A stretch of 64,000 nt of DNA from Siphonodentalium dalli (Eukaryota; Mollusca; Scaphopoda; Gadilida; Siphonodentaliidae), in the NCBI GenBank assembly GCA_032622095.1, contig CP136066.1, positions 43,165,835 through 43,229,834 on the forward strand, given 5' to 3'. The position numbers and the translations under genes are program-made. Shown here piece after piece: positions 37,441 to 62,520 of this stretch (the stretch's first letter is position 1; the number at the start of each line of letters is the position of its first letter). The notes under the pieces were generated by a model. It saw nothing but the letters and a program-made list of their open reading frames with translations, did not search any database and was not told the DNA's origin.

Positions 37441-38794
37441 AATGAACTGTAGAAAGAGAATAGAAATACTCAGATAATTAGTTTTTGACCATTATTACAA
37501 CTAGAAAACAAACACAACTAACACTAAATCATCAAATAAAGCAATAAATTGTCATTTTATGGCAGTACTAGGGGAGGCCAGCTCCAACTTAGGGCTGTGG
37601 CCTTCAGATATGACTTTGGCATATAAAACAGGTGTCCCCAAATAATTACTGGAAACTACACTGGCTGTTCCATCCGATTATAGTTCTGAATTCATCACAA
37701 TATACGAAAACTACTCAGAATAAACATTCAAATGCACCACTAAATAAATTTGCGCAAAGCTGAAAATAATAGTTACCATGGCGACCATCTTGGGTGGCCG
37801 ACCGGAACCAAAATGGGACGTTCTCATCATGGGGTCATAATGAGTTACTCAACATGCAAAGTTCAAAGAAAATTTATGTATAAATGCGGTAGACTGTGAA
37901 AAAGGAATCCATGATGGCTGTAATGGCGTTCATTTTGTGTGGCCGACAGGAACCAAAACAGGCCGTTCTCGTCTAAACATTAATCCTAACATGTATATTA
38001 AATTTGGTAATGATCCAATTAGAAATACGGCTTGTAGACTATTAGCACATATATTCAATTTTTTAACGTAGCGTGATACGTTGCGGAACTACAAATAGAG
38101 ATTATGTCCCATGGAAAAAAAGATATATGAAGTTAGGTATTTTGCATAAACAAGCATTGAACATAAATCCTACCAAATTATGACTGCGCATTCGCCATTA
38201 CGAGGACCCCCTTATGGGCAATTCTATGATAAGAGACACTCGAGGATGATGTTTATGAGCAATGCGACTGATTTTGACCATCATTTTGTTCAAATTATAG
38301 GAGAACACACGAATAAATTCCAAGCTTCATTATAGTCTCGAATTTCACTTAAAATGACGCAACTGCACGTATTTACACAGCCCATGCTATTTCCTTTCCA
38401 AAAAGGTATGAAGAGTAATATAGGCGACATATGCAGTGCGACAGGGACAAAATACAGACACTACCACCGGACCGGTATACCTGTCTTAGTACGGGATATA
38501 GCAAAGGCCATCAAAGATAAATAAGTCAATTGTTTCCGGTTACGTGGCTAAAAAATTCCAGGTAGGTAGGTAGGAATTGTTTTTATTTTGCATTTAAAAA
38601 AAACTAATTTATTTTGAATTTCACGCTAAAATTATGGGTAATATTGACTGCAATATCCATGGGTGAAATAAAATGCTACCATTATGATTGCATCATTGAA
38701 ATTCCCTCCAAATAATATGTCCTGTGAGGAAATGTTTATCACAGTGAAGATTATTGAACAGCTTCACATAGAGTATGCAATTTATTGACAAGGC
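37441..38794. other. Intergenic, with relics of a dispersed repeat
   Basis: The stretch 37,770-38,060 shares words with the tandem array at 55,100-56,100 (accaaaa, ggccgttctcgt, ttggtaatgatc, tgtagac), so it is probably an old member of the same family. At 38,560 a run of taggtaggtagg occurs; a similar word is seen at 39,540, beyond the next MITE. No gene seen. Confidence 0.45.
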
Positions 38795-39394
38795 TTAAAG
38801 GGATACTGTACCCAAATGTTGTTGTTGGTTTCTATAGTCTCTGAGTCGGAGAATAAGGTAACAATTTTCCATTATTTGAAAGTCTATTGAGTACGAAGAA
38901 GTGTTACGGATGGCAAATTTACCAGAATGCAAAAATACAAATTGTTGTTGTCGAGTAATTTTTGTACAGTTTTCAACCAAATGTATCAAATAAAAGTTAT
39001 ATTATATATGCATACTAGTCCCATGTACTCATTTATGTTATTGTATCATCACTAGTCAGTGAGTGGCTTGAGTATTCTCCCCGTATCAGCATAATGTTTC
39101 AAACGATCGTGTGTGCAATGGGTTTACTAATCCAGTATCCCTCAATTATAATTTGATTACGTCTTGTACAAGGAAATTCGTATTTTAATTTACGCCATTT
39201 TATGGCTCCAGCCATAAATTCAATTTATATTAAATTATTAACTTTTAAATTATTAAATTTTAAGATAGCCTATTAACCTGAGCGTTTACAGAATACATCT
39301 TCGACTCAAATTACTTATGTTTCTATATATTATCGATAATAGATCGTTGTTATCACCGGAAATTTATTGCAAATGGCGTACAGTACCCCTTTAA
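38795..39394. mobile_element. MITE with TTAAAGGG ends
   Basis: Starts TTAAAGGGATACTGTACCC and ends GCGTACAGTACCCCTTTAA; about 19 bp of terminal inverted repeat with few mismatches, flanked by TTAA. The 560-bp interior is AT-rich and non-coding. A piggyBac-like origin is possible from the TTAA. Confidence 0.65.
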
Positions 39395-39633
39395 AATGTA
39401 GACTTCTACCATACAAATCAAATTATGCATCAGTACATAACTGTTGCATTCTAAGGTAAATATATGTTGGAATAGTCAATACAAATGAGTCGCATCAGTT
39501 AACTTTTAAAAATTATTTTTCCAGGTATCACAAATTTTTCCAGGTAGGTAGGGTACTAGTAATAGGAAACAAAAACGTTATTTTGTTAGGCCTAAGTTTC
39601 GAACCAGTATACTCGTCTTACAGGTTGAAAGGG

Positions 39634-40025
39634 TTAAGTTTCCTCACTGTGTACATACAATTTATTGTTTTTTATGAAAAACTTAATCTGGTCCCAGGGT
39701 CGAGCACTAAGGACAGGAGCCTTCCTCATAGCCTCCAGACATTGAAATTTCCCTGGTAGGCTATTAGAAGTGAAATACTTTCCTAACTGCTGATGGATAG
39801 CAGCCTTTTCTTCATCTGTCCATTTTTTCCGGACGTTCGATTTTCTCCTTTTTGATTTTGGTTGTTCTGAGGAAGTGGCATGTGTGACATCTTTCGTCCT
39901 TTGTTTTGTAGAAGACGTATGTATTTCTTCTGATTGCACATGTATGTCTTGTATATCTTCTGATTGTTCTGCATCATCAAATTCTGTCAATTTATCAAAG
40001 AGGTAATTATACATTCTGATGACAA
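39634..40025 (-). CDS. Fusion gene, terminal exon with Myb/SANT-like domain
   Basis: 392 nt; acceptor gcgcag, stop at 39,634-39,636. Joined with the previous donor it reads EVVVIRMYNYLFDKLTE, then an acidic stretch, a basic stretch (PKSKRRKSNVRKK) and KKWTDEEKAAIHQQLGKYF with PWDQIKFFIKN. W-T-x-E-E and the later W suggest a Myb/SANT-like helix-turn-helix. The same tail occurs in related recombinase-like proteins of other animals (from memory). It is open here, but out of reach if translation stops at the upstream lesions. Confidence 0.68.
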
Positions 40026-41482
40026 CTGCGCACCCTGAATGCCCTCTAACAGAGAAATGTGCATTGATTGATCACTTTACTTACTTAACACATATCCACT
40101 GAGCTATAAAACAGCCAATGTCAAAAGCTTAGCTTGCAAGAAATTTGACCCAATGTCGGTCACAATGTTGTTTACTGCGCAATACTGATTAGGTTACATT
40201 GCAACATAATTGGGCTGAATATAGAAAATTTGTTGTGCCCATAAAAAGAACAGTCCAGAATCCTCTGGCGATATTTGGGCTATGCCCATCTGCTAGTGAA
40301 GAGTTTGATGCCAAGATATTTGAGATCGCGTACCAGCATGCAGTCCAAAAATGGATTCATTTAATACACACATGTGATATAAGCATGTGACAAACATGAC
40401 AGACAAAGGACAAACACTTCTTCATAATATAAGTATACTAGCTATGTGCCTGCTGACTCCGTTGTAGATTTCATGTCAAGGTCATATGATAGGGGCAGTA
40501 AGACTCCGTAAATATGGTACCCACTGTGAGATTACCCTGCATACAAAAAGTGAAGTCTATCCGAAATATTGTTCCCAAGATAAGGCTAAAGGTCATTGTG
40601 GGTACCTGTATGGAAGGATAGGGACAGACATGATGAGGTTACTGCCCACCCCAAAATACCCCTATATACCAAACTTAATCTCTATAGGCAATTTAGTTCC
40701 TGAGATAACAGTGTCACTTGGTCATACACCGTGTCTGTTTCAAGGTTACAGGAACATCGGAAGGGCAAATCATCTTGACAGCATTCCCAAAATACCCTTC
40801 CAGTCCCAAAATACTTTAGAAAGCAAATTTGTTTGATATAGGCCCAACAGTTTACGTGTGTACCTGATTAAGAGAAAGCATGTATCATATTCTGACCCAA
40901 GTTATAAATTTAAAGGGGTATATGTCAGAAACTATTAGAATTAATATTCTGAGAAATTCGTTTGCTGTTTTAATTAAGGTCTTCAAAATCTAGAAATAAT
41001 CCAGTAACAATTTAAACCAATATCTTTCAAGTGACTGTATAACTAAAGTTATTTATTATACGACAGTATTTCTCTCCCCGTATCTTGCTGAAATATGTTA
41101 TGATCTGAATTAAAAGATGTTCATTTAGTAACTAATTGAACCGTGTTATGAATATTCTTTTGTTATAGCAATCCGAGTTATTATTATTTGCTGATCGTCG
41201 AAGTCTCAAAATATCAATCGACCGTGGGAGAAAATTCTCATTTTTCATTGAACTTTTGGAAACTCTGAATGCCAGTAGACATATAATAAACGCTTTATCA
41301 ATACAGGGTAGTTATATGTATCACAGTATCATGTCTCGTTGAGGAGATCATATCACTGTATCAACCTCACTGCCAAAGGCAGCTCGTTTGATACAGATCT
41401 GACTTCAACTCGACTTGATATGGCAGACCATATCACTATACTGTACTGATAATGGGTATGTATAACAACTAAAGTTACTTAC
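40026..41482 (-). other. Intron of the fusion gene between recombinase and terminal exons
   Basis: AT-rich, no other gene seen. The open frame at 40,486-40,836 on the plus strand has no domain pattern; proline-rich cccaaaatacccc words recur in it, so it is probably a repeat by-product. Confidence 0.5.
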
Positions 41483-44096
41483 CAACTTCTGAATCTGTAT
41501 CCATCTCTATTTCATCCAAAGATTTGCCCTGATACTTGTGCATGTTCCCCTTCTCTACCTCTAGAAGCAGTTTACTGACTTTACATAGTTGTAGAGTCTC
41601 TTCCGGTAGTCTGTAATATTCTCTGTGAGTGCGTATATATCGTGTCCCATAAAGTTAGCTAAAACATCCAACTCATTGTTCTTCAAATTCATTATCTGTG
41701 ATATAGTTGCCACATGTTTTCTCAATTGAGTTGATGTTAACAGTTCAGGCTTTGTAGCACCACATTCTTTTGACATTCTTCGTATAACGTCACTGCATCT
41801 GATTGGGGTCTCTGTACAACCTGCTCTAGCAAAGACATAAGGGTTGTCCTCCTTTATATTTCCTTACTTTCGACACTTTTCGTCACTGAGAATATCCATT
41901 TGCAGTCTTAGTTTTTTTGTGATTAGGACGGCTACGCGTCTCCCTTTTTTACCCCTCAATTCTACTCTGTCCATTGCCTCAGCAAGTTTTATTTCAAAAG
42001 AAGAGAGTGACTTTTTTATTTCACCCTGAAGTTCTGCTTTATTATTAATTCCAGACTTGTAAATATCAACAGGCAACAGCTCCACCTCACCTCCTCTTCT
42101 TCTGTTGAACAGGACAAGTTGCCCGAGAGTCACCTCTGCTAATGCCCGGAAGTTAATTTCATCGATATCTGAAGATAGATTTGCTGAATACTCAGAAGCC
42201 TTGGACTCCATGTATTTGTGTAATTTTCTCAGATCCTCTGTCAGTGGTACTCGTTTTGGATTGTTAAATTTTCTTCGACTCAGGGTTTCCCTTGCAGGGG
42301 CATTAACTTCATATTTCCAGTTACTTCCACAAAGTTCCATAAATGCAGCAGCATTATCTTTTTCTTCAACTTGGCCAGCGATGCTTGCTTTATCTTTCAC
42401 TATTTGACCACATTGAATTAATGCAGTTCCCAGTTTGACAGCCAAACTTGGAGTTTTGTAAGAAAGGTTTTCCTCATTAAAACATGCAGTGCTCTTCACT
42501 GCTTTGACAACATCCCAGAACACCTTGGGTTTGACGCAATCTGCCATGGTCTGAATATTCGTATTTATTTGCCTTATATTCAACAGGAATCTTGCAAGTT
42601 CTCTTATTTTATTTCTCACATATTGGTACTGTCTTTTATTTAATCCACACGACTTAAGAAGTCTTTGGCCGAAATCAACAATAACCGTATCATTTCTTGC
42701 TGCAAGCGACACTTCATCAACTGATAATTTGTCCAAGATATTTTCTCGAAAAGCAATTTCGGTGTTGTGTGATACTGGCAAAAGCGAACTACCTGCACGC
42801 TGATGGTAGGTTCTTCCCTCGTGTGTTTTCTGGACCATCTTGATGCAATTTTTTGAATGTCTCCACAATTCACTTTTTGAGAAGAAACCTCTGCAATGTT
42901 GACAAGGTAAATAATCCATCCACACATTTTTCCTTGAAGGCCGTCTGATAACACTTCCATCATTAGAATCGAGAACAATCATGTTATGCATGAAGTTTCC
43001 TCGGTTAAATAAATCCTGGAAAGCATCATTACATTCTTTACTGCCTTTCCTAAAATTTGTTGCAATGATAACATCTGATTCATTTTAGTGAATGGATTCC
43101 AAGTATCTTCTTAACTTCTTATACCCTTTCCGACAAAACGAACAATAATTTATTCTATTGTAGATTCTTTTTTCACCACATTTTTCAGTTGTATCAACTG
43201 CTATCAAACTATTAACGTCTTCTGAACAACAAGATGTGCTATCTGGCTCAGTTATGTCAGTAGCCTGTTCTGTACAGTATGTTGATGTGCTTTCTAGCAC
43301 CGAATGAGTAAGTATATTGTCAGTAGATTTGTACTCACTCATACATGTACTTGTGCTTATAGCTTCATTTTGGCACTTCATCAATTCAGGGAATGGATAG
43401 ATGTCTGAGAATTCATCCTCTGAACATGGCACCTTATCCTCATCATCTGAACTTTGTTCCCCACTTGGTTGATACTCAGAACCACTACTTGCCAATTCTT
43501 CCTCACTTGGTTGATACTCGGAACCACTACTTGCCAAATCTTCATCATCTGACAAACTGATGTCCGCAACCTGAAGGTTCTGAGAAGGTACTACATACTC
43601 AATGTTACAAGGAGGTTCCTTGTCCTCGATTTTCTGAGAAGGATCTGCAACCTGTATGTTCTGATCATGTTCCAAGTGAACAATGTTATGAGAAAGTTCA
43701 ACATTATGAACAGGCTCCAAGCAACCAATGTTCTGAGAAGGTTCTGCAACTTTTATGTTTAGAGAAGGCTCCGCATCCTTGATATTTTCAGAAGGCTTCA
43801 AATCGCCCATGCTTTTCTGAGGTTCTGCATACTTGACGTTCTGAGAAGGTTCTACACATTCTATGTTCTGCAACTTTTATGTTTAGAGAAGGCTCCGCAA
43901 CCTTGATATTTTCAGAAGGCTTCAAATCGCACATGCTTTTCTGAGGTTCTACATACTTGACGTTCTGAGAAGGTTCTACACATTCTATGTTCTGAGAAGG
44001 TTCTGCAACTTCTATGCTCTGTGAAGGTTCTGGGTAGTCGATGTTCCCCGAAGGCGCTCCATCATATTCTGATTTTTTCTTTTTTTTAACTGTGAC
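41483..44096 (-). pseudogene. Linker, zinc-finger and tyrosine recombinase exon with four disabling lesions
   Basis: 2,614 nt; acceptor gttccag, donor gtaagt. It starts VTVKKKKKSEYDG, then a linker of Glu-Pro-Ser-Gln-Asn-(Ile/Val) repeats of about 12-13 residues and an acidic Ser-rich stretch. Then a finger YCSFCRKGYKKLRRYLESIH, in which the usual first His is Tyr, and a second finger LPCQHCRGFFSKSELWRHS. The recombinase core shows FNRRRGGE (Arg box), LRGKKGRRVAVLITKK (Lys strand), STQLRKHVATIS and NFMGHD (His/Arg boxes). HREYYRL, with the candidate nucleophile Tyr, is readable only in the +2 frame. Lesions: 11-bp deletion at 43,870; TAA at 43,085-43,087; TAA at 41,864-41,866; extra TA in tatatat at 41,634-41,640. 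Apart from these, the frame stays open across the exon. Confidence 0.75.
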
Positions 44097-44465
44097 CTGG
44101 AACAGAAATTATGAGAAATTAGTCAGTATTAGTGTCAACTCAAACATTTGGCTGTTTTCTTCATTTACTGCAATTAGTGTGGAAACAATATGTCAATTAT
44201 GATAAAGATACAAATAAAATTTGATGCTAAATTACCTCTTAATGATTTTGTTGAAAAAACTCCTTACAATGTTTTTAGTAAAATTGAATGTTCGGCGATA
44301 TAAAACACATGTTTATAATGGGTTTTTTCAATTACTTGAACATTCCACTAAAATTATTCAAAAATCTGGCAGACCGGGAATCTATACCCTCATTCTTGGA
44401 CCGAGGTATGAAAACTAAGATAAGAAATCTCTATCAATGTGAATCTGATCTTCCCCTATGTACAT

Positions 44466-45275
44466 TAGGGCTGCAACGATTCACCGCGGTTTCGGTGAAT
44501 CGCGATGTTTACCGGCGGTGCGATACGCGGTTCGTTTCGTAATTATTCCGGTACGTTTTCGATCCGCATTTTTGTCACCCAAGCTCTCTGAGAGGACACT
44601 TTTCATTGGCTGTAACCGCAAAGATTCCGTATTTTCCTTTTCTGTTAACCAATCAAAATCGTTCTTCCGCGAGGGTCAGTTGAATATATTTGACATTTAA
44701 AATCAAAACAAATTAACATGTCGGAAGTATCGCATGATAAAAGTTCTCAGCCAGTCGGAGACGGGCCTGGCGGGATAACTCGAAAAATTGTCGGGGCGCT
44801 GGCGAAGTTTATATCGCCGGTGTGGAAGCACTTTGGGTTTTGTGCGTTCAAGTTGAAAGTCTGATGCCCTAAAGCAGTTTGTTTTCAGTTAATTTTAATT
44901 TTCATTGGAACATAAATTAATTATCCTCAAACAGAAATCATGACAGACGCAAAAACTAAAGGTTACTCAGAAGGATATCTCAAAACATGTGCACCCTTCA
45001 GCACTTTTTTTGGTGAGAGTGATCCTTTGACCTTAGGAATCTTTGATTGCCAAATAACTGTACAGGGTGCCGAGATGGTATAACATCAAGTGTGGTCATA
45101 ATTAAAGTACATGGCTGAATAATAGTACACATAATGGCTATTAATGCAACAGAACAATCCAAAGTTGTAAACTGATCCAATTTTCAGTCTGCAATGTATC
45201 GCGATACGTATCGTATCGTTGCAAAAAATAGTGATACGTATCGAATCGCGAGGTGGGCGTATCGTTGCAGCCCTA
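44466..45275 (+). mobile_element. hAT element, 810 bp, internally deleted
   Basis: Terminal inverted repeats TAGGGCTGCAACGAT and ATCGTTGCAGCCCTA; both sides carry the 8-bp target duplication ATGTACAT (44,458-44,465 and 45,276-45,283). Eight-base duplications are a hAT hallmark. Subterminal cgatacgtatcgtatcg words near the right end are typical transposase-binding-type repeats. It lies in an intron of the fusion gene. Confidence 0.85.
44718..44864 (+). pseudogene. BED-finger start of a hAT transposase
   Basis: ATG at 44,718 opens a 48-codon frame ending SPVWKHFGF and CAFKLKV with TGA at 44,862. S.VWKHFGF is the opening of the BED zinc finger at the N-terminus of hAT transposases (ZBED relatives). 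The rest of the transposase is missing, so this is a non-autonomous relic. Confidence 0.65.
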
Positions 45276-45283
45276 ATGTACAT

Positions 45284-47163
45284 TGCGGTCAGGTGGAAGC
45301 TCGGATTAAGATCCTTAGTCCTCACAAGGCTACACAAAGAGAAATATCCTCATAATATATAAGGACACATGTTAGCACAGATCTATAGTCCTCACTAAGC
45401 TACACAAATAGAAATGTCCTCATAATATATGTGTGCATAAACTACAAGGCATGTAGCATAATTATCATCAAAGATTATATTTTAAACTGTGAGTGTTTTA
45501 TGTCTAACATATGCTCATTATGCTGCAATACTTGAATGGACCAAAAGGGGTGACACAAAAAGATGGTGCTCATTATATACAATCATCTATTATAGACCTA
45601 CTATCAAATTTGTATTAATTTCTAATAAACTCCATGTTCCTGTAGTCCAAGACCATGAACATGTTCCCTGGGACCTTCACAGGGGACAGAAAATTACAGT
45701 TTTTGTTCTAAAGTCATAGAAATCATGCCTGGTCATCTCATTTTTGTAGTAATTTCAAAGTATTCCCAATCGATCATACAATACAACGTGCCCAAGACAA
45801 TACAATGTGCACTGACATGTTGCCACAATGAGACATAGTTACGTCAGGAGTCTTAATTCCTTGGACCAAAAACTGGTTGCATAAAACATTACATATTTTA
45901 TAGTGAGTTCAATAATATGCAATGACTGCTTTTTTGTGATTAGGTATTTATGATTTCTTCTCCAAGGGCAAAAAAATAAAATGTTGTGTTCAGGGTTTCC
46001 CGACCAACCTTAGTAAAAGTGTGCGACCATAAACTTTTTATTCAACTTTAAACAAAATTTTATTATCAATGTTTTTTATCTTTTTATCCAACGGAAGTCT
46101 GCGGATTCCATGAATTGAAATTTACCCATACGTCGCCCCTCCATTTATAACACACGCACCGGAAGATATCTACTTATGACGTATCTTTTCCGCTTTGTAT
46201 TAAGACACGAAGCCCAAACATGATTTCTGCGACTGAATTGCAGGTTTGTTTTGAATAGGTCCCCAAAACCCCTATAAACCATAATGAAAAATCCCATCTG
46301 CACCTATAGTGTGTGGTTGTCATAGCACTCGGAGGTTCCCAGCGGTAGCTTTATACCCGTATAAAACATAATGAACAATGCCATCTGCCCTTACTATAAT
46401 TTAAACAAATTTATCAAATAAATTCTCATCAATCGACTTGAAATTTCAACATTGAAATACTTCTAAAACACAAACAGCCAAATACCGAAATTTGTCAGTT
46501 AAAATGTCAAAAGAAAATCGCAGTCTGGCGTGTTTGTTTCCTTCGTTTTCGAGATAAAACCTTTACTATTTGGAAAATTCGGTACAGTCGGTACATGTCC
46601 TACTATGTAATTCATTCATATGAAACTACTGTTGTTGAATAAAATATGTAACAAAATTGTAAATTCTTCCGCATGAAATATAATGCTGCCAACAATCCAT
46701 CCCTCGAAAAACTAAGTAGGCAACCAGGAAATCAGCACCAGTTAATCGAGCATTCAGTTCTATCAAGTGTTGTTTTAATACCTGTTTATCGGTTGGTCTG
46801 TGCTGATCTGAATTATACCACCGAAAAAAAGAAGAGAAAAAGACCTACCTACCTGAAATTTTTGAGTGTATGTAACCCTAAACACAGGTATTATTTTTTT
46901 TGGCCCAATGAAAACATCCACAAGTAAATACCAAATAGTATGCATGTTGCTCTGCCTCCCTTCCTCAGACGTTGAGGTTGTTTGCCATGGATTATACCCG
47001 ACACCTATACTATGAGGTAGTGTAGTTTAATGGGGACTATAACCTCTCAAATATTTATTAATTTGTTTCCTCGTGAAATAAAGTAAAAGGATAATGTAAT
47101 GTTAAGTAATTTCAGCTGATGCTCACCACTACTGAATTTGGGAAAATTAAAAAGCTCACAAAC
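45284..47163 (-). other. Intron of the fusion gene, right of the hAT element
   Basis: A short direct duplication with cctcataatatat and agctacacaaa words sits at about 45,330-45,430. No other gene, RNA or strong repeat was seen. Confidence 0.45.
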
Positions 47164-47380
47164 CTGTAAGAGATCATCAGTCTCCCACGGTGGATGCTTG
47201 ATTCCATAATCATAGAGAAGTTCTTCTCCTGGGTTGATAGCTTTGATGGCATATAGGCAAAGGTATGGTACCCCATTGTGTTCTACTGCTTGCATTTTGC
47301 AATTTCGTAGATTTTTATTGTCATGGTTGACTAGACGACCCATCACGAAACCCTTAGTACACTCTTCCGTTGCATCAATG
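47164..47380 (-). CDS. KMT5A-like SET domain, catalytic part
   Basis: 217 nt; acceptor atttcag, donor gtttgt. Encodes CIDATEECTKGFVMGRLVNH, then NCKM, GVPYLCLYAIKAINPGEEL and LLYDYG. The DAT, GRLVNH (cofactor pocket, pseudoknot) and GEELLYDYG (catalytic tyrosine strand) motifs identify a KMT5A/SET8-type lysine methyltransferase; the family methylates histone H4 lysine 20. NHD replaces the usual NHS. The tail IKHPPWETDDLLQ replaces the KMT5A end. No lesion is seen in the SET exons. Phase 2 to 0. Confidence 0.8.
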
Positions 47381-47587
47381 CTGAAATTAAACATGACATA
47401 AGTCAAAGAATACATATATTTTGCATAAATCACTTTCAAAACATTTCAAAAATAAGAAATCTTATTTTATTAATTCCTATTTTTTTAATCTTATACATAA
47501 TACAGTCCAAAAATAAATGTGTAAATAACCTAAATATGATTCCACAAGGTAATTTCAACTTTTATGTATGTCCTTATTTAAATGTCC

Positions 47588-47819
47588 TTAACCCTTTGAG
47601 TGCCAGGGGCCGATCTCATCGGCCCTAAATCTACAAAATAAGTCTGTTAAAGAATATAAGAATAAATTATTAAAATTGTAAAAAAAAAAACATTGTTAGG
47701 CCAATGCATTCTCTTATATATGGGAGGCGACCTATGGTCGACTCGCATATATAAGAGAATACATTGGCACAGGGTATATGGGTTGATACAAAAATCGGAC
47801 CTGGCACTCAAAGGGTTAA
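47588..47819. mobile_element. piggyBac-like MITE
   Basis: TTAA, then CCCTTTGAGTGCCAGG, and on the other side CCTGGCACTCAAAGGG, then TTAA. TTAA target and CCC-starting inverted repeats are the piggyBac signature. A second perfect-to-near-perfect stem (ttctcttatatat against atatataagagaa) sits inside at about 47,709-47,758. It lies in the intron between the two SET exons. Confidence 0.75.
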
Positions 47820-48939
47820 TTAACGCTTGAAAACAGAAAAACTAACATAAAAGTTTTTTTTAATATCTAATTCCCCCCGAATGAATAATTCAACAATGTT
47901 GGCAATTTAAATGCAATTACTTTATGACTATAATTAGTAATACAGTTTACAAAATAAAGACTACAAGCTAAAATCTCATTTAATCTTTTTGCGATGTCTG
48001 ATCAAGCTATTGAAAACACAGAGGTTGGTCATGGATGGTCATCTCAACATTCTCATTTTAATGCGTTTCATCTGAAGTTCAGAATTAAATTTATTCGGGC
48101 ACAATCACACAATAATTTTATTTGTGTTAACATTTGATGAGGTATAAAGGGAACATCGTGTTGTGTGTTTGGTGGTGGGTAATTAAAATAACTTACAACA
48201 AACTTGCGTTTATTGCCAAACACCAAATATGTAGACTGAGTCACTTTAAAGAGCTAGTAGGCTTTAGCTACATGATAAAATATTCTCTTGGTAAAAAATG
48301 TAAAAGTCTACAGAACACATATATTCATACAAAATAAGGATTATTATTATTGAATTAGACTGAAAGATTCCAAATTGAGTCTACAAGCTTGATCGAGTCT
48401 TAGGATAGAATCTAAGCTAGAAGTTTAATTGGGCCCTATTATTAATTAAAAATTTTTTAAGTCGGAACAGGGACAACAACTCGTGCAAAAATCATAATAA
48501 ATGAACCACAGCATGACTTTACATCAGAATATTGTTCATTCATAAAACAAGTTTGTGTTGATTGATCAATCCTATCGAAGTTTCAATTGAATCCAACAAA
48601 GCATGGAGCAGAGAAGATAAGTGTCAAATATTATAATCGTCATGTACGACCTTGATCTTCAACGAGACACAATTTTTTTTCCGCTACACATCATCTCCTC
48701 ATGGGGAACAATGATAACAAGTTTCTTTCAACTGAAGCATGTGTTAGTTATGGAGCAGAGACAAAGGCCTCATGTGAACAACCATAGCAAGTTTCAAAGA
48801 AATCCGAAGCATTTAGGCATTATGAAGTGGACATGAAAATCTGTATAGACAGAAAGTCAGAACACTACATGCCCCCCACCCCCCCCCCCCCGAAAAAAAA
48901 ATTCAGGGTCATAAATCAAAGGATATCATATTAACTTAC
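47820..48939 (-). other. Remainder of the intron between the SET exons
   Basis: AT-rich; a homopolymer C run at about 48,872-48,890 followed by A. No gene seen. Confidence 0.5.
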
Positions 48940-49099
48940 CAATAACGACATTCCTTGAAACAAAAAAAATATCTAAATGAATTGGCTGATTGATCATGAT
49001 CCTCTCTTGCATCTCCTTCTGCACCTGTCAATAATTCACCGCCATAAACAAGGAGGAAGTCTCCTGTCTCAAATGACTGCTTTGCCCTTATTCCTCGCC
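48940..49099 (-). CDS. KMT5A-like SET domain, first part
   Basis: 160 nt; acceptor ttacag, donor gtaagt. Joined to the previous exon it reads KGRGIRAKQSFETGDFLL then VYGGELLT. GRG.....F..GDF...Y.GEL is the SET-N motif that contributes to S-adenosylmethionine binding. Then DQSANSFRYFFCFKECRYC leads into the next exon. Phase 1 to 2. Confidence 0.78.
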
Positions 49100-50251
49100 C
49101 TGTAATAAAGTAATAATGTAAGTTGATTATCTGTTTCTCAAATACACTTTTTAAAACCTGACAGGCAGGTTTTTATATTTCCTTTTTATGCTGTTTTATG
49201 ACTTAAATTTACTGGCAGGCGGTCGTTTAATTCTAAATTTTTTTAAACAAAAATATATTTTTTTAGATACTTGGCAAGGTCCACATCCCTTCTATTGGAA
49301 AGGATCCATTTTCCTTCCAATTGGGAAATTTTGTAGCATAATGATACAAATTGGGGTGTTTTTATATGCCTTTCAAACTGGTAAATGTTCATATTAGTCC
49401 AAAAAGTTAATGATTTCTTTCACGGGCGTTGGTGCACAGGATGTCAACCTCAACACTAAATCTTTTTATTTTACTTTCAAAAATTTATATCTTCCAAATT
49501 TCAGATTGACAATGCAATCAACAAAATTAAGTGACAGTTCACTATTTTGAAAGTAATGCTAGCTGCAAGGTATTTTTCTATACCTATTGTTTTTCAGTTA
49601 TACAAGGGTAACAACCGATGGGTAACAATCAATGACCAGAAAATACATATAGGAGCAACAGATAGTTTGTAAACATGCACCATTCATGCCCAGATCTATG
49701 GGCGCACCTGCATGGAGGACTCATGTCTTGGAACATGTGCTCTTTATGACAAAAATCAGGACGCAGACTAGAATGGACAAACTGTTACTGTTGTGGTGTT
49801 CGAGACTAGACCCAATGGCAATGGGATCATTAATCATATCTATTTCAAAATGTGGTTTTGTGATATAGATGTTGTTGAAAAATTAAGTTTTTGTTGGCTT
49901 CAACTTATTCAGACAGACTATGGTTAAACGTTTTGAGCCCGGTCACATGCACTTATTAAAAAGTTTCTATTCAAAAGCAGATCAAATAAATGCAGTTATT
50001 ATGGATGTTGGTATAAATGCAATATCGAACATAGTTGGACAGTCCACTTGATATACCTTTGACTCTGCCCTTGCAAATAACCATAAAAACGATTCATACT
50101 TAATAATTCTTGGGACAATATCAAACTGAAAGAGTGAATGTAATTAGAGTATAGCGAAGGAAAGAATGAACAATATGAGTTCATGTTGTATAGGTCTCGA
50201 GAAAATAATAATACCCTCCCTCACTGAAAAACAAATGTAAAAAGAACTTGC
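49100..50251 (-). other. GC-AG intron of the fusion gene
   Basis: Lies between the pre-SET exon and the first SET exon; its donor is gc, its acceptor ttacag. No repeat or gene was recognised. Confidence 0.55.
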
Positions 50252-50344
50252 CTTTTGGGGGAATTTCATCTATGACAAATCCAGCTGGGTCAGTATTGTT
50301 TATCAAGCAGTTAATAGCTGCATTGATTGGCTTTATCCTCTTCC
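50252..50344 (-). CDS. Fusion gene, pre-SET exon
   Basis: 93 nt; acceptor tttccag. The donor is gcaagt, a GC-AG intron with an otherwise perfect consensus. Encodes KRIKPINAAINCLINNTDP and AGFVIDEIPPK. The INCLINN...AGF segment is typical of the region directly before SET in KMT5A-like proteins of fish and invertebrates (from memory of the family). Phase 1 to 1. Confidence 0.7.
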
Positions 50345-50816
50345 CTGGAAATAATGTATAAATTCAAGCACATAAAAATAGTAGAAACTGCAGATCTGAA
50401 GATGTTTAGAGTTGATAGTTCACAAGATAATTTTTCCAAATTTCTGTTTATTAAAGTCTCAAGCCACCTCCCATCCATGGTTTTGAGAAAGGATTATTGC
50501 AATTCTTCGCAAATTTGTTGTTACATCAGTCTAAAGACACTACATCAATTTCACCTATAGAAATAAATGTTTTAATATTTCCTGATATTATTAGTTGTGG
50601 TAGTTTAGTTGGCAGATATAATGTCATATTGGGTGATGTGTGAACAATGTTGGTGCTTGAGAGTGTATGTTTTCACAAATAATGCTATTTTGCTGAATCT
50701 CGAAATCTGTTACGTCAAACACAATAATTGTAACTGGTCAAATTTCCATTGGTATTAAATAAATACAATAATTCAATATGTTTTTATATGTTTAGGTTAT
50801 ATATTCCGAGACTCAC

Positions 50817-51030
50817 TTCTGGTTCTGCAACTCATGTCTCTCTGGGGCTCTTTCATTGTATTATCTTCATGTGATGATGATGTGTAATGGGGTGAGCCCT
50901 CTCCATATTCAAATCTGAAGTCCCTGCTACCAACTGAAATCACACTTTTATGGAGAACACAGGCAAATCCTAGATATGTAACTGGTAGGTTGTTCAAACA
51001 GGTAGGCTGGCTGATATTCACAAGAAAGAC
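50817..51030 (-). CDS. Fusion gene, second visible exon
   Basis: 214 nt; acceptor tttacag, donor gtgagt. Encodes VFLVNISQPTCLNNLPVTY, then a basic tail CRTRR completed by the next exon (RRKRIKP). The start may belong to a small beta-rich domain; the rest is acidic and Ser-rich. Phase 0 to 1. Confidence 0.62.
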
Positions 51031-51220
51031 CTGTAAATTATACAAATATATCAGCTATTCACTAGTGTTGCCATAATTTTTTATTCTCAGAATCAATAAA
51101 TCGTTCATCATAATAAAATGTACCTGAGTGGACCACATATTTGATGAAGAAATGGTACAGAATTTCAGATAATTCTGAAGTTTGTTCACTGAGGGACAAA
51201 TACTAGCTAAATAAAATAAT

Positions 51221-52581
51221 GTCTATCGAATCCAGAAGACAAGATTTATTGACAAGAAGATAACTAACTCTCTCATACCTAACAGGGTCTATTATCAACT
51301 GGTACATAAAGTAAAAGTTGAGTGTGCGGGGTATGTGGTTTGGGGGGCTAACCACAGGATGGTCGAATAGTTGAGTGTGACAACAGATGAAGTGCTAAAA
51401 TAGCTTGACTGTGAGCGGATTATACTGAGCATGCATCAACATTAAGAGGCCGGGCAAAATGGCACATATGTGATTGTGTTCGTTTTCGTTGCGTTGGGAG
51501 GACGCATATGTACTTGCACACCAACATTGCGAGGACAATTTTATTTATGAGGACATTGTGTGTACATCGGATGTATATAGAATGAGACGTAGGGATCGAA
51601 ATAACCAGTAACAAATCGCAATTTGCGACACATAAAGGCACTATTACGATAAGATTACACTCATTCTATCAAATTTAGCGACATTATTTGTTAACATCCC
51701 TGTCCGTTCCCGTTCAATCACTAAAATGCATTAGGACTCTCCCATTCTATGGAACCTATCTTTTTTATTTCAAAACTACATTGGAGGAATTATTTACAAG
51801 AGGAGAGTGTAAACTTATTAGGAAAATCATTCAATATAATATAGTCCAACACTCTTGTTCATACGAAAGTATATAGCAATTTGCAATTCATTTTTCAAAA
51901 CTTATTTTGATCCAAGATGAGACGTCTATCGTATCCAGAAGACAATATTTATTGACAAGAAGATAACATTATCAACTGGTACATAAAGTAAAAGTTGAGT
52001 GTGACAACATATGAAGTGCTAAAATAACTAGACTGTGAGCGGATTATACTGTGCATGCATCAACATTAAGAGGCCAGGCAAAATGGCACATATGTGATTG
52101 TGTTCGTTTTCGGTACTTGCACACCAACATTGAGAGGACAAATTTATTTATGAGGACATTGTGTGTACATTGGATGTCTGTAGAATGAATGAGACGTAGG
52201 GATTGAAATAACTGGTAACGAATCGCAATTTGCGATAAATAAAGGCACTATTACGATAAGATTACACTCATTCTATCACAGTTATGTGGTCAACATCTCC
52301 GTCCGTTCCCGTTCAAACACTAAAATGCATTAGGACTCTCCCATTCTATAAAACCTATCTTCTTTATTTCAAATCTGCATTGGAGGAATTATTTACCAGA
52401 GGGGAGTGTAAATCCTCACACTCGTCACACAAACACTTGTGAATACATCCAGTGATATTTCTAATAACCAACTTATTAGAAAAATCATTCAATATAATAT
52501 AGTCCAACACTCATGTTCATGTGAAAGTATATAGAAATTCGCTATTCATTTTTCAAAACTTATTTTGATCCAAGATGAGAG
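51221..52581 (+). repeat. Tandem duplication (two units of about 703 and 658 bp) in a fusion-gene intron
   Basis: Unit 1 starts gtctatcgaatccagaagac at 51,221; unit 2 starts gtctatcgtatccagaagac at 51,924; both contain ctgtgagcggattatact, ggcacatatgtgattgtg and aggactctcccattctat. A stub of a third start (ggtctatga) occurs at 52,580. Unit differences are small substitutions and indels. Confidence 0.8.
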
Positions 52582-54513
52582 GTCTATGAGGACTTTCATC
52601 AAAATATATCCACAGATTGGACTGTTTGCGTGACATTTTTGTTTAATGTATGAAGGGGTATGGACCAATTAAAGTAGTTCGTTCAGATTCACGGGTGAGA
52701 ATGAGAGACAAACCATATTCCTGACCGATAAATCAACCAGTAGCCATAGGAATGAAATCACGGCTTTATTCTGTCGGCAATCAGCGATGAACATAAAAAA
52801 TAGAAGCCTTTCAAATTCTTTGAAGATGACCGACATATGTCGACGTTCATGAATTTGATGGCCAAATTCGTTCAAGGTCGATTTACATCGCTTTCGAATC
52901 ACTTGCCTTCGATAGGGACATGGTCATTAGGTTCTATTATCGGGTGGTCGGCGGGATACACTGAAGCCTTCGTGCCAATTATACCATGGTGAGTGGTCTA
53001 ATCAGGGTTCAAACAGGTTCCCAAAGTCTAAATTTAAGCTCTAAAGTTCAAGGACTTTATGGGCTTTTTCAAGGACCTTCCCATTACTGTACAATGCCAC
53101 ATGTATGGATATGGGAGGGGTATTACTCATGCTCCACGAAGGCACAGAATAAATTCAATGTGGATCACTGAATTGTTACTATCCATGTTTCACTTCAGTT
53201 CGAATTCGCGCCTTGCGCTTGCCTAATTTTGATTCAGAATACGCATTTTATTGCGTGCCTAAAACAAACAATTAATGCTGTGTGCGATGTTGACAATACA
53301 ATGCTTCTCTTGTTCCAAATAAGTATAAATGGGAGATCACCCAATAGCAAGAACCAAACACATATGAACTGGGTTAAATTCAATAGCTGCACCGATTCTT
53401 TGAAGTGCAAACATGAGTGACGTCAGTGACCACGTGTTTCAGAGCAGCGGCGTTGAGTCTTTGATGTTCCAACACCGATCACTACCTCGGATCGTCGAGC
53501 ATTGTCTCAAAATGAAAACTGTGTCATAATGTTATGATGGCAAGACGTGTCTTGGTTGATTGACAGGCGGGATTGCATTGGACAACCTTGCAAGTTGTAC
53601 TTTTTGCCCACATGCCGGGGTTACTAGGCACATTCCACGTACGCGGTTTATCGTGTTTGTGAAACAAACATTCAATTCCATGACCATAACAATTCCATGA
53701 CCCATACACCACTTACATAGTTCCAAACTAGTAGACAGACGATCACTCAAGAGCGGTAACAAAATTCCATGCGCGCAGGCAGCAAATTAACTGGTATCGC
53801 ATCGCAATTTGCTACCCATTTTGGATAATAGCTATGCAATTTGGTATGAATTTTATATGATTTTAGAACAATGCTTTCTAATCATGCCAATGTGAGGTTA
53901 TATGCTAATAACAATTTCAAAAGTAATTTGCTCCCTGCATGCGCGGTGTTAAATTCTACAGCGACATCATGTCTTTGAAGTCGTGTTGACATCTTTCGGT
54001 TATCGCATGTATTCAGATAGAGTTCAGAGCAGCATCGAGGCTTTGAGTTGTAAACACCAATGAGTTCCGACTTTCGTAAATCAGTATCCCGATATATTTT
54101 ACAGCGATATGTCATGACGTAAGTGCTGCGTGCTTTGGTTGACAAGATCGTCATGTGTCATTCCAAGATCTTCCGCGCTGTATTGAACTAATTTATTAAT
54201 TGTTCTGGAAAAAGTGGATTGATTTTGTACTCTGCATGTATTGTGATTTAATTCTTCGTGTAAAATGGAATGAATTACATACAAAAATCACAGCATATTA
54301 TTCAGGAGAGCGATTTGCCCTCCTAAGTAATCTGTCAGGCAAGCGATTTTCTGCCACCCTGGATTTTATATAAACACCAGGCCTGGACAATGGAAACAGA
54401 TATAATTTTGTTTGGCCCAGTTCAGTTTAATAACATAATACCCCACACTGTTAATTTTTCAGAACGTATTATCAACTGGTCCTATTTCTCCACTTCCATA
54501 TATTTAAACATAC
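52582..54513 (-). other. Rest of the large fusion-gene intron
   Basis: TGACGTCA at 53,418-53,425 is followed within 10 bp by the E-box CACGTG. Sequences at 53,530-53,760 and 53,880-54,150 are open in several frames but lack domain patterns. No gene supported. Confidence 0.4.
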
Positions 54514-54595
54514 CTCACCATCTTTATTAACCTCAAGTTGACAGTGTCTTTCATCAACAGTGGGCAGTCCAATGCAAATGTCACAACTTTTATTC
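54514..54595 (-). CDS. Fusion gene, first visible exon
   Basis: 82 nt; acceptor ttttttcag, donor gtatgt. Encodes NKSCDICIGLPTVDERHCQ and LEVNKDGE with three cysteines. Phase 2 in, phase 0 out, continuing into the exon at 51,030. No domain recognised. The preceding exon was not found. Confidence 0.6.
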
Positions 54596-55100
54596 CTGAA
54601 AAAAAAGCCACACATCATGGATGGATATTATATTTTACATATATCTGGGTATGGAGGAGCTCTATTAACAAATACATTAAGTGCACATGACATTTACATC
54701 AGAGATGACAGGAGATTTATTTAAATAGGTAAAGAAAGAATATGATAAGATTTTATTGTAAACCTAGTTCAGCCAGACCGCTGATCAGATTGCGGTTGTT
54801 AGCGATGGCATATGGCTGATCTATTGTAAATCATGGAACAATCAAACAATAGAAAATGTGACTTGATTTCTTTCACAGATGACATGTACAGCATGCTTTC
54901 CAAAAACAAGTACATTGAAACCTCCGCTCATAAGCATTTTAAAATGCCATGGTTGAGACTCTTTCTCTGAACGTCAACTAAATAGCAAGACAAGTTCATC
55001 TTTTGAACTTGAGTATTATAAATCAACACATCTTCCTTTCCAGCTTCCGTAAAAGTTATATTTGTTGGGCTAGATTGTCTTGTTTCAATATTAATAACAT
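54596..55100. other. Region upstream of the first visible fusion-gene exon
   Basis: No further exon of the minus-strand gene recognised. AT-rich single-copy-looking sequence. Confidence 0.4.
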
Positions 55101-56150
55101 AAATTTAGTGAAGCAAAGAGTAAATTCTAAAATGGCCACCGGCGCCTTGTTTTTTCTGCCGAATGACACCAAAATGACTCGTTCCCATCTACATGTCAAC
55201 ACCCATGACAAATTTCATGAAGATCAAAAAACAGACCAGTCTATAACCCATGATAATGGATTTTGTAAAAATATTTAGTCATACAAAGAGTAAAATCCAA
55301 AATGGCCATTTGTGGCCATATTTTTTTGCCAAATGACCCCAAAATGACTCGTTCCCATCAAGAGGTCACCCTGATGATCCATATGAAGTTTGGTGATGAT
55401 CGAATCAGGGATGTGGTCTGTAGGATGTGTCAAAGGATTTAGTGATGCAAAGAATAAAATCCAAGATGTTTTTTTGGCCGATTGATCCTAAAATGTCTCG
55501 TTCCCATCTACATTTAAATGTCAACATTCATGACAAATTTTATAATGATCATACTTACAGTATGGCCTGTAGCCCGCGCCAATGGATTCAAATTTGAAAT
55601 CCAAGATGGCCACCAGCGGCCATGTTTTTTGGCCGAATTACCCCAAAATGATTCATGCCCAACTAGGTGCCACCTCAATGATGAATATGAAGTTTTGTGA
55701 TGATCGGATCAGGGTTGTGGTCTGTAGGGTGTGTGAAAGTATTGAGTGATGCAAAGAGTAAAATCCAAGATGGCTGACAGTGGCCATGTTTTTTGGCTAA
55801 ATGGCCCCAAAGTGACTCGTTCCCATCTACATGTCAATTTCAACATTCATGAAAAATTTCATAAAGGGATCCGACCAAGATACGACCTGTAGCCCGCGCG
55901 AAAGCATTTAGTGATGCAAAGAGTAAAATCCAAGATGGCTGACAGCGGTCATGTTTTTTGGCCAAATGACTCCAAAATGACTCGTTCCTATCTACATGTC
56001 AATTTCAACATTCATGACAAATTTCATGAAGAATAGACCAAAGATACGACCTGTAGCCCGCTCCAAAAGAAATTGTTGACGGACACACGGACGATGGACA
56101 CCAACCCATGGCAATAGCTCAAACTTAATGTGCAAAGTAAGTTGAGCTAA
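55101..56150 (+). repeat. Tandem repeat of about 165-170 bp, six imperfect units, with element-like end
   Basis: Each unit contains caaagagtaaaatccaa, gatggc, catgttttttggcc, ccaaaatgactcgttcccat and atgacaaatttca. Units start near 55,115, 55,275, 55,447, 55,590, 55,751 and 55,917. The 3' part reads gttgacggacacacggacga and caatagctcaaactt, an ending I associate with dispersed repeats in mollusc genomes (memory, not verified). A related relic lies at 37,770-38,060. Confidence 0.7.
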
Positions 56151-56927
56151 AAACAAAGTTACATGTATATTGATACATTAAACAGAGGCGAGTGTGTATT
56201 TAATGTATGTGATATCCATGCACTGACGAAGGTATCATGATTTCTTGCATTTCATGTCAAAAAATATATTCAGCTATGTTATATACACCTCTTTTTGGCG
56301 ACGTATACATTGTGTAAGACAGCTTTGAAATTGGGCTGATTTAATCGGTCCCAAATCTCCCCCTTACCCATCCACCTTTCCAGTTTATTTCCATAAATTC
56401 ATCAAAAGTGGTGTTACAATGAATTTCTGTTATTCCGTAAAAGTAGTCTCTTTATACTAGTATTCCCAAATAGCATGAAACACTAAAGAATTAAAAAATA
56501 CATGGCTTTCTAAAACCACTAATTTTAATACCTTCCAAACAAACAGACTGTCGACACTAATGGGAAATGAGCACCATCTTCACCACCATGTTTGATAACA
56601 ACAATCGTTCCATATAACATCTAACACAGTCTGAATAATAAATTAATAAATAAATAAATGATTTGAAAGTTAAATTTAATTTAATTTTTCCAAGACTTCT
56701 GAAGCAACAAAACAATATTAGTATTGCACTCACATGTCGGCTACCGGAAACAGAATCTAAATTGGACACTATATATATTATTGGCTGTTGTAATCCAATG
56801 TAATTGAATGACAAACTGAGTTCACTGTGAATTAACGAAAACAGTGCTATTTTTATATTATGCCCTATGAGGACCTATGAAATGTCCTCATTTAAAACCA
56901 AATTGTCCTCACATAGTTGGTGTGCAA
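56151..56927. other. No gene seen
   Basis: AT-rich sequence. The minus-strand frame at 56,557-56,814 shows no domain pattern or exon signal. Confidence 0.4.
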
Positions 56928-57030
56928 CACAGGTCCTCAGAAAAAAAATTGACCCCACCCCCAATAGTACTTAATCCTACAGGATTAAGTACTATTGGGG
57001 TGGGGTCAATTTTTGTTCTGGGGACCTGTG
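56928..57030. repeat. Long hairpin
   Basis: Arms cacaggtcctcag...ttgaccccaccccc aatagtacttaatcct and aggattaagtactatt ggggtggggtcaattttt...ggggacctgtg pair almost perfectly, about 50 bp each, with a tip of only a few bases. Confidence 0.85.
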
Positions 57031-58973
57031 GTGTGCAACAGTGCAAACTACTTTAAAGATGTACACGTATGTCCTCTCAATGCTAAATACAAACAGTACA
57101 TTACTGAGATCATGCACATAAGTCAGAAGTTTTTACGTATAAGTCTGTATTTAGTTCTTCTGTAGGGACTCATAACAAATTTAAAATTTTAGATTTTCTT
57201 TGATAAGTCTAGCATTTCAGCTAGCAAGCAACATACAAAACGTAAAACATCAATTGACCATTGATCTCAGATTGAAATCAGAGCATTCTATTCACCTAAA
57301 CTGTCTAAGCTAGTTGATTAATGAAAGTGTCAATAACACTGAAGCTCAACTTGTGTAGCAAATTTTTGGAGAGGTCTTTGTGCATGATTTGTTGACTGTT
57401 ATCTGAATGTAGAGGAATATATTGAAGCAGATGACCGACACTAAATTGATGCAATAGGCTATGTTTTCTGGGCTGCTAATCGGAATTGGAAAACATCATC
57501 AGGAATATGAGCTAGGTCCTAGAATTGTTCAACTGTGCATTATATAAGCTTTTCGCAGTTTATACGATTACCAAGTGGTTTTCATGGAACTTGTCCACAT
57601 GTACTTCCTAGCGGCAGCACTGAATGTTTATAGTCTGAGTCTTTGCATACTGTTACCGCTAATTCTGACTTGGCTAACAGTCTTGAGTGCAGAGTTCATG
57701 TTTGCAGGTCGCAGAAACCGAATTGATCTTAAAACTTCTCTCTCTGGTGACAAATAAAATAAATGAAGCTTATTGTTAGTACGTTCATATGAACACAATG
57801 TTCCACCGATAGTAATTTCACCTAGACATACCTGAATGCGCAAGTTCGTATGAAAATGTAAACAAAATAGGAGTAATCATGTTTTAGGCCCAACAAGTAT
57901 AGCTGAAATCTTCTGGGGAATAAACATATCTTTTCGCTGTGGATTTGGTTTGACCGGAAACTGAAGTTATGAGACCTCGGTACATAACCTTCAAAAAAGT
58001 GTGCAGACTCGTCTGCTCCAACTGCCAATCATCCAAACGTCAATTTATCCAGCAGTGTTAATTTGGATTGATCTGCATATACCTTGATGCTCTAGACATA
58101 CTAGTAACATTTTCAAACAGTGACACTGTTAAACCATATATTTTTCACCCAAGCAATAGGAGAGATACTACTCAATGCATATCAAAAAGTATATTCTTTA
58201 TGGCATGAACACCAGAAGGTTTCGCAAATAATGGGAAAAACCATGTGAAGAATAGGGTGCATCAAAGGAGTATACATAGAATTTGTCATCCTTCATAAGA
58301 CTGAATATTTTAAGGTTCCTATAACTATGAGTCTATGACAGTATAAAAACGCTTGTGAATAAAATAGTATAAATACATGCAGATATATATTTAAACTCAG
58401 GCTATGTATTTATACTACGATCGCCATTGTAAAAGCATTGCACGCATTATGTGACTCACTGTTTGTTATTTTCCAATAACAACAGAGTCGCAGGTCATTC
58501 ATTATAGCCAAAACAGGTGCGTTATTCTCACCTACAATGGCTTCCGTGACTTGCGTTATTAAATTGGGCGTATTTGAACTTATTCTGGGATTCCCACAAT
58601 CAGCTGCTTCTTTGCGACTATAAGGGGAGACAATACACAGTTTATAAATCCACATAATTCAGTGTTCGAGTTTTACATTTTTAATTGTTTTATTCCATGA
58701 ATAATTGTTATTTATTCAAATAATTCACATCGAAATAATAGAACTTCTTCCTGTGACTCAGTCGCCGACATATACTCGGCAGTTTTTGTTTGGGTTCAAG
58801 TTGGTTTGCAGGTGTGGCGAGATCATTTTCACTGGGTGTGTTTTAGCATCATTCTGTATATCTTGTCTCATTTAAGTGTGTAAATATAAGTTAAAGTATG
58901 AATCTACGTAGTCCAAAATTGACTATACATTGAAATGTATCTTTAGTATCCCGTAGATTTTCGACTAGAATCT
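57031..58973. other. No gene supported
   Basis: Small open frames at 57,575-57,757 (+), with a hydrophobic N-terminal half, and 58,410-58,655 (-) lack splice context or family patterns. Nothing else recognised. Confidence 0.4.
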
Positions 58974-59088
58974 ACGATGTTCATGCGATTTGACACTAGA
59001 AAAAAAAATCAACAAATTCTTTTTGAACTCCTTCGGGGTTCATAGAATTTGTTGATTTTTCTCTTGTGTCAAATCGCATGAACATCGT
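58974..59088. repeat. Long hairpin
   Basis: acgatgttcatgcgatttga...caacaaattct is mirrored by agaatttgttg...tcaaatcgcatgaacatcgt. The tip, gaactccttcggggttc, itself folds back. The stem is about 50 bp with a few mismatches. Confidence 0.85.
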
Positions 59089-59147
59089 GAATATTGGGCT
59101 GACTTTTTGTAAGTATCGTATCCCAAACCTCCCCGATCGATGCAGTC

Positions 59148-59721
59148 CAGGGTCCGCGCTGGACCGAAATTTACTTTTGCCAAATAATTTGCCAAATGAA
59201 AATATTTTTTGCCAAATTCTATTAGAAGTTGCCAAATGTTATCCCTGATAGTATCATTTTTTTGCAACATTGATTTAGTTTTTTTTCGACGCTCGTTTGA
59301 ATGACATTTGATACCGATAGGAAAGCAGTTAGTTAATTATATTCGCATCTATATTGTGGTTTATCATTTAATAATAGATCAATCACCGAACAATAAAATG
59401 TTAGAAGGGTTGCTTCATCAGAAGGGAACATCACAAGATGATTAGCTGTGTAAACCTACCATCACATTAAATATTGATAATCCCTCCACCCATCGATAAT
59501 AATGTTACCAGATAAACTGCATATTAATGGAGGTGTTAAGGTTTCCGAAAGCATATAAAACACCACTAATATAATGTTATTGTAATAGTTTCCTAAAATG
59601 AATGGTATTGATTGATTGATTAAAGTGACTTGCCAAAATTTTTGCCAAATGAAATAATTTTTTACCAAATGTGAATTATTTCTGCCATTGGCAAAATTGG
59701 CAAGTGGCAGCGCGAACCCTG
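59148..59721. mobile_element. hAT-type non-autonomous element, 574 bp
   Basis: Ends CAGGGTCCGCGCTG and CAGCGCGAACCCTG; 8-bp target duplication ATGCAGTC at 59,140-59,147 and 59,722-59,729. The subterminal word tgccaaat recurs on both sides (ttgccaaataatttgccaaa and its relatives near 59,630-59,690). No coding frame. Confidence 0.85.
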
Positions 59722-59855
59722 ATGCAGTCCCATCCTATAACAATTTCATTTGCAATATACATCAGAGGATTTTCGCCGAAAATGGTGTTTTAAAGAATAC
59801 ATGTTATTCAGTAAAACTGACTTTTACTGAGTAACACACTTTAGAGTTATCGACA

Positions 59856-59972
59856 CAGCCCTCGAAATTAGGATTTTTCATCTACGGCATTTTCTACGGC
59901 AGTAATGTACAAAGATACAAAATGTATGATTCATTTCGGCAAATTCTATGGCATTGCCGATTTCGAGGGCTG
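59856..59972. mobile_element. 117-bp MITE with CAGCCCTCGAAAT ends
   Basis: CAGCCCTCGAAAT opens and ATTTCGAGGGCTG closes it; TCGACA flanks both sides (59,850-59,855 and 59,973-59,978). The end sequence looks hAT-like, but only 6 bp of target duplication are seen. Confidence 0.7.
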
Positions 59973-59978
59973 TCGACA

Positions 59979-62469: not shown

Positions 62470-62520
62470 TCAAATTTCGAAACCACTGTTGCAGTGTCCT
62501 TGAAGGTGTCAAACTAACAG

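Follow-up and report, generated by a model that had tools for sequence, protein, structure and literature searches.

The 64,000-nucleotide stretch of Siphonodentalium dalli DNA analysed here (the window) very probably contains a decayed copy of a large, intron-bearing tyrosine recombinase (YR) DNA transposon, whose gene most likely encoded a single protein from spliced exons, running from an FHA domain of Ki-67 type and a SET domain of KMT5A type through an acidic/repeat linker and C2H2-type fingers to a YR core and a small tail (Table 1). The best reading of the data is a TG-repeat-targeting lineage of YR DNA transposons, apart from the Cryptons of this genome by profile, that acquired SET and FHA domains. 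Directly readable from the DNA are the recurrence of this domain set across several families, the catalytic columns, the element ends and their (TG)n surroundings, dispersed near-identical copies, a deleted derivative and uninterrupted target repeats.

Table 1 Features of the window, with the evidence for each; positions are counted from the first letter of the window.
Feature	Position	Strand	Evidence
FHA exon 1 (Ki-67-like FHA, middle part; acceptor phase 2)	54514..54595	-	Pfam FHA 1.1e-5 for the frame; splice sites
FHA exon 2	50817..51030	-	Joined FHA: Pfam 7.5e-6, Ki-67 structures 5.3e-5; in-frame join
SET exon a (GC donor)	50252..50344	-	In-frame join; C3:52.08 Mb and C6:90.0 Mb carry exons 97% identical to it
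SET exon b	48940..49099	-	Pfam SET sub-threshold alone, strong once joined; KMT5A best
SET exon c (NH and YDYG motifs)	47164..47380	-	Pfam SET 1.8e-10; KMT5A best
Broken exon with repeat linker, two finger motifs and YR core	41483..44096	-	Motif positions; stops and frame changes; relatives
Repeat linker, 27-bp period, with a 124-bp near-identical tandem duplication	43563..44059	-	Sequence
Open frame with C-terminal tail exon (start approximate; tail domain ~39634-39885)	39634..40071	-	90 related genome rows; same frame as YR at C6:99.6 Mb
Finger and recombinase motifs	43144-43112, 42907-42845, 42112-42086, 41953-41924, 41737-41705, 41650-41639, 41618-41598	-	Motif scan
Dispersed 600-bp repeat within the element	38795..39394	.	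At least 38 other rows, ~query 303-922, 97-99% (13352 candidates)
Homology span to the 18-kb derivative	37776..64000	-	5' end of the element is 584 bp beyond 64000, within (TG)n

With regard to the gene of the window, the five FHA and SET exons form a single open frame with consensus-like splice sites. The first of them begins in phase 2 and therefore requires an upstream exon, which was not found ahead of 54595-54514. The donor at 47164 and the acceptor at 44096 are both in phase 0. The frame entered at 44096 halts at a stop at 43790-43788, past the 124-bp tandem duplication, where the frame changes. Two more stops follow, at 43087-43085 and 41866-41864, and a second change of frame occurs near 41.6 kb. 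As exon 44096-41483 carries these stops and frame changes, the window copy is a pseudogene. The first-pass annotation had described seven cleanly joining exons: the five FHA and SET exons do join open, but exon 44096-41483 is not one open frame. The repeat linker, the finger motifs and the tyrosine recombinase motifs that it had described were all located in this exon, though the exon is broken. Its Myb/SANT label for the tail finds no backing in Pfam, which gives only two sub-threshold, unrelated families for this part, and it had left the FHA domain unnamed although the FHA exons (54595-50817) lie within its coordinates. Elsewhere in the window, positions 24001-32000 have a G+C content of 0.42-0.45, compared with about 0.36 around them.

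A search of the genome (2.23 Gb in 9 sequences) gave 60 SET rows and 103 rows for the YR of the window. All 60 SET rows and 87 of the 103 YR rows entered the pairing count, from which 16 rows of a tandem array at C9:153.78-153.82 Mb were dropped. Nine of 46 SET clusters lie no more than 25 kb from one of 60 YR clusters, against about 0.06 expected, and all nine pairs have both parts on the same strand with SET 5-21 kb upstream; conversely, at the thresholds used, at least 51 of the 60 YR clusters stand without a SET cluster in that range. That a SET gene and a recombinase are neighbours by chance is conceivable for parts that are both multi-copy, but the excess of pairs and their constant order and strand make it vanishingly improbable, and for this genome the pairing count refutes it. 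The nine pairs include five families, namely those of the window, C6:99.6/C4:2.4 Mb, C6:179/C3:139 Mb, C1:264/C8:182.7 Mb and C8:17.2 Mb; the identity of their YRs to that of the window ranges between 100% and 23%. The joint SET and recombinase architecture, which the first-pass annotation had singled out, is conserved in several diverged families of the genome. The domain order is FHA-SET-YR in the window family versus SET-FHA-YR at C6:99.6 Mb, the FHA exons at C4:2.43 Mb and C6:99.61 Mb lying downstream of SET and upstream of YR; at C8:17, C6:179 and C1:264 Mb no FHA was detected in the sequence read, which stops short of the intervening 13-20 kb. At C9:74.1 Mb the distance from the SET rows to a YR is 54-67 kb and the order is reversed, and this locus is outside the nine.

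Several other arrangements of these parts were observed. At C6:90.0 Mb (L024, L025), which is among the nine, window-type SET exons are near-identical to those of the window and the YR about 9 kb downstream is only about 30% identical; this pairing may be a chimera or the result of neighbouring insertions. In a tandem array at C5:4050794-4088129, at least eight SET-coding units recur every 4.68 kb or so, with open frames and no YR row nearby. Another array, at C9:153781685-153818804, repeats a YR fragment about every 2.17 kb in 18 rows, each with a stop, and amounts to a satellite-like repeat derived from part of a YR. Three related YR loci (C3:167.09, 167.19 and 167.33 Mb) exhibit a tail-like exon about 4 kb upstream of the YR, not downstream.

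Once its three exons are joined, the SET domain of the window is complete (Pfam SET, E=1.1e-18), and the 14 best PDB rows among solved structures are all KMT5A/SETD8 (best 3.2e-23), in agreement with the KMT5A-like SET domain of the first-pass annotation. The joined FHA exons rebuild most of that domain, with a Pfam FHA score of 7.5e-6 and Ki-67 as the two best solved structures (5.3e-5 and 6.3e-5); its N-terminal strands were not found. Both domains exceed the Pfam cut-offs in two families, with 26.7 and 32.1 bits for FHA at a cut-off of 20.7, and the FHA intron and two SET introns match in place and phase between the window family and the C6:99.6/C4:2.4 Mb family. Among the catalytic motifs of SET, the asparagine of NH and the tyrosine of YDY/YNY are kept in all five families, while the histidine of NH is kept in one and the other four exhibit ND. 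The KMT5A-like domains may be methyltransferases, the loss of the NH histidine in four families tempering the expectation of activity.

The catalytic set of tyrosine recombinases comprises R, K, (H/K)xxR, H/W and Y columns. In an alignment of seven YR sequences the invariant columns include R222, K268, R341, H367 and Y376, which presumably fill these roles, and the first histidine of box II is replaced by T or S. AlphaFold models of two YRs have mean pLDDT values of 70.5 and 79.5. In a fold search of the PDB with these two models, Xer recombinase chains were the 9 and 7 best matches, respectively, and the next match had a probability of 0.20 and 0.14; the best E-value was 1.3e-3, none reaching 0.001, and the TM-scores were low. 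Since these E-values and TM-scores are weak, the assignment is based on fold and motifs jointly, and the two together identify the product predicted for this exon family as a tyrosine recombinase. Among viral structures, the nudivirus VLF-1 matched the fold best and integrases were among the following five; a PHROGs search gave nothing useful.

None of the five YR frames matched a Pfam recombinase family at E<=1, the phage integrase profile that the first-pass annotation had put forward as a check included. In the genome, the DUF3504 (Crypton) profile has abundant matches, many of them open and near-identical (best 150 of 1168 candidates scored), and the Phage_integrase profile has many (best 150 of 1445 candidates scored); among the matches listed for the two profiles, none is at a SET/FHA-YR locus. 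As these profiles match other sequences and none listed at these loci, the YR looks like a separate branch, within the sight of the profiles. Crypton or Phage_integrase membership by profile was ruled out, there being no match in the YR frames and, among the matches listed, none at these loci.

The boundaries between the domains bear on whether they belong to one protein. The phases of the SET donor and the YR acceptor are 0/0 in the window, 1/1 at C8:17.2 Mb, 1/1 at C6:179 Mb and 0/0 at C1:264 Mb, and those of the FHA donor and the YR acceptor at C6:99.6 Mb are 1/1; the phases at the SET-YR or FHA-YR boundary therefore match in all five families, with splice sites picked by eye, a second possible acceptor at C6:179 Mb and room for intermediate exons. 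At C6:99.6 Mb, fingers, YR and tail form one open frame of 797 aa. No methionine precedes the first finger in the YR exons of L007, L019 and L021 (nor in L051, a near-duplicate of L021), which represent three families, so in these the YR exon cannot start a protein alone. At least one methionine is present before the first finger in L023, L044, L045, L047, L048 and the window, in a count that leaves out L046, L049 and L050. A single element with two genes, in which SET/FHA and the recombinase travel together and are made as separate proteins, would accommodate these last five fetched frames and the window, as well as the many YR rows that have no SET row nearby. We consider it unlikely, given the matching phases, the exons lacking a methionine and the unvarying arrangement of the pairs, with SET upstream of YR on the same strand. 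These features of the sequence suggest, instead, that FHA, SET and recombinase are translated as one chain.

With regard to mobility, the copies at C4:2.4 Mb and C6:99.6 Mb extend over about 30 kb and are mostly 97-99% identical, with 90-92% in the tandem repeats toward the 3' end and three stretches present in the C4:2.4 Mb copy only. Their SET, FHA and 797-aa finger-YR-tail frames are open. The notion of open copies elsewhere in the genome thus holds for this related family, but not for the window family, in which both copies with YR sequence (the window and C3:52.08 Mb) are broken. The two open elements start after a (TG)n run, and a third place, C6:232.36 Mb, exhibits the same start base after (TG)n with a different flank and has no YR row listed. 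More diverged relatives have a similar terminal sequence at their start, again after TG-rich sequence (6 of 8 further rows fetched), and the 3' end runs into (TG)n at three of four further fetched places, homology being lost earlier at C4:143.95 Mb. Overall, 12 of the 13 examined 5' ends and all 7 examined 3' ends have a TG run of 10 nt or more within 60 bp, as do 0.22% of positions drawn at random from this material; in these counts two ends share one run at C8:106.67 Mb and two ends at C5:20 Mb are possibly not independent. The exception, at C3:52.09 Mb, has a TG run of only 8 nt. The host repeat that is split by the C9:97.9 Mb copy is uninterrupted over the TG run in all 40 rows scored (the best 40 of 87 candidates; one insertion), and within (TG)n a target-site duplication is unreadable. 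At C5:48.04 Mb, an element end is followed by the apparent start of another inside the same TG run. For the C3:139/C6:179 Mb pair, the 5' end was not reached, and a plausible 3' end, seen in one copy, is at about C6:179029279, where (TG)n precedes the host repeat also found beside C9:97.9 Mb.

Simple terminal inverted repeats were rejected, as the end-to-end local alignment scored 25 against a shuffle maximum of 33, and for this reason only CGGGGAC motifs near both ends are claimed. The CGGGGACTATTTTT motif, which belongs to the C6:99.6 Mb family, matches nowhere in the window, and the end sequences of the window family differ from those of that family. The 5' end of the window element is reached 584 bp beyond the window, within (TG)n; no 3' end was located for this element. 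A 10.3-kb segment of the window that includes FHA exon 1 (52739-63071) is missing from the C3:52.08 Mb copy, which may reflect an insertion in the former or a deletion in the latter.

The window family also comprises a derivative of 18 kb, recognised by its broken tail exon at 37 places (of 90 tail rows), of which four were fetched and two had their ends seen. It matches the window from 64000 to 37776, largely in order, without 61809-54395 and 51119-41715, deletions that take out all FHA and SET exons as well as the greater part of the YR exon, and it is flanked by (TG)n. The four fetched copies are about 96-99% alike, so movement was recent. Two copies, at C8:106.66 and 106.68 Mb, are in tandem with one TG run at their junction. 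Of the two possibilities raised by the first-pass annotation, a mobile or a domesticated recombinase, the first is supported by the (TG)n termini, the near-identical dispersed copies, the internally deleted derivative and the uninterrupted target repeat.

The second would imply a host gene with a recombinase-derived domain, duplicated together with its surroundings. The intron-rich structure, the large duplicated blocks and the incompletely found boundaries of the C3:139/C6:179 Mb pair would be compatible with it. However, the FHA and SET exons of the window differ from those at C3:52.08 Mb at 6/467 positions and the introns at 94/6996, and from those at C6:90.0 Mb at 2/470 and 65/4206, respectively (p=0.06), with six replacement codons versus two silent among the exon changes. 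Because the exons diverge at about the intron rate, domestication is disfavoured, and for the broken window copy it was rejected. Together with the sharp (TG)n ends at unrelated flanks and the existence of non-autonomous derivatives, this makes a domesticated host gene very unlikely.

For the transposon, the following mechanism can be proposed. The fingers and the tail would bind repeats near the element ends (CGGGGAC in one family), and the recombinase would exchange strands between these ends and (TG)n without leaving a target duplication that can be read. The SET domain could methylate a nucleosomal lysine while the FHA domain tethers the complex to a phosphorylated chromatin partner, both acting on chromatin at the donor or the target and helping the element to work there. 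KMT5A and Ki-67 are cell-cycle chromatin proteins, and for this reason SET and FHA might also couple movement to the cell cycle. That the FHA/SET/YR chain marks or targets chromatin, as the first-pass annotation suggested, is what we infer from its domains. A histone-methyltransferase domain in a recombinase gene would make it possible to ask directly if mobile elements mark chromatin in order to select their targets or to survive there, and the substrates of what would be a (TG)n-targeting eukaryotic recombinase, a terminus and a simple repeat, are easy to build and test.

In the literature listings searched we found no earlier report of a YR element carrying SET or FHA, and the lineage extends the YR DNA transposons. 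No SET/KMT5A or FHA domain together with a tyrosine recombinase in a transposon was reported in the titles and abstract starts searched (Repbase and most subscription literature being outside this search); KMT5A with tyrosine recombinase gave no literature match, and tyrosine recombinase with FHA, in the accessible portions of the records, appeared only in plant bacterium and algal virus contexts. Multi-copy 'KMT5A-like' genes are annotated in other animals. If our reading is true, transposon-borne copies could account for them, and some 'KMT5A-like' annotations may be transposon parts.

Among known systems, the CryptonA/I elements of animals resemble the window lineage in being YR-only DNA transposons with abundant non-autonomous derivatives, and the accessible part of their description reports neither a C-terminal domain nor terminal repeats for animal Cryptons (PMC3212892). 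In contrast, the window lineage has no DUF3504 match, is large and multi-exon, and exhibits SET and FHA, a C-terminal tail and (TG)n surroundings. Whether it amounts to a separate superfamily apart from Cryptons, that is, giant intron-bearing animal YR transposons with one polypeptide that would read phosphorylated chromatin (FHA), methylate nucleosomes (SET) and recombine at TG repeats, is in our judgement evenly balanced. The YRs of endogenous nimaviruses carry a C2H2 zinc-binding domain, insert into simple repeats and are not close to DIRS, Enterprise or Cryptons, according to the accessible part of their description, and can be likened to the window lineage in the first two respects by description only (PMC10871703). 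They differ, according to the same text, in targeting telomere repeats or 28S rDNA and in belonging to a large viral genome, whereas the window lineage is associated with (TG)n and has one recognised gene with SET and FHA (PMC10871703). A nimavirus-like endogenous virus, which this similar YR layout and repeat targeting might evoke, is nevertheless extremely unlikely: in the C6:99.6 Mb element, searched piecewise, the only frames of at least 130 aa are the YR exon and a 149-aa repeat-like frame, and of seven pattern matches in viral contigs none was confirmed.

As domain sources, KMT5A/SETD8 and Ki-67 are the best solved-structure matches of SET and FHA, at a distance (85 and 26 bits), and the transposon SETs differ from KMT5A/SETD8 in the NH motif, which reads ND in four of the five families. 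SETMAR/Metnase is a single domesticated primate fusion of SET to a mariner transposase, and its SET structure is a weaker PDB match to the window SET than KMT5A. It resembles the window lineage in joining a SET domain to a transposon enzyme; in the window lineage, however, the enzyme is a tyrosine recombinase and the SET fusion is part of a mobile family.
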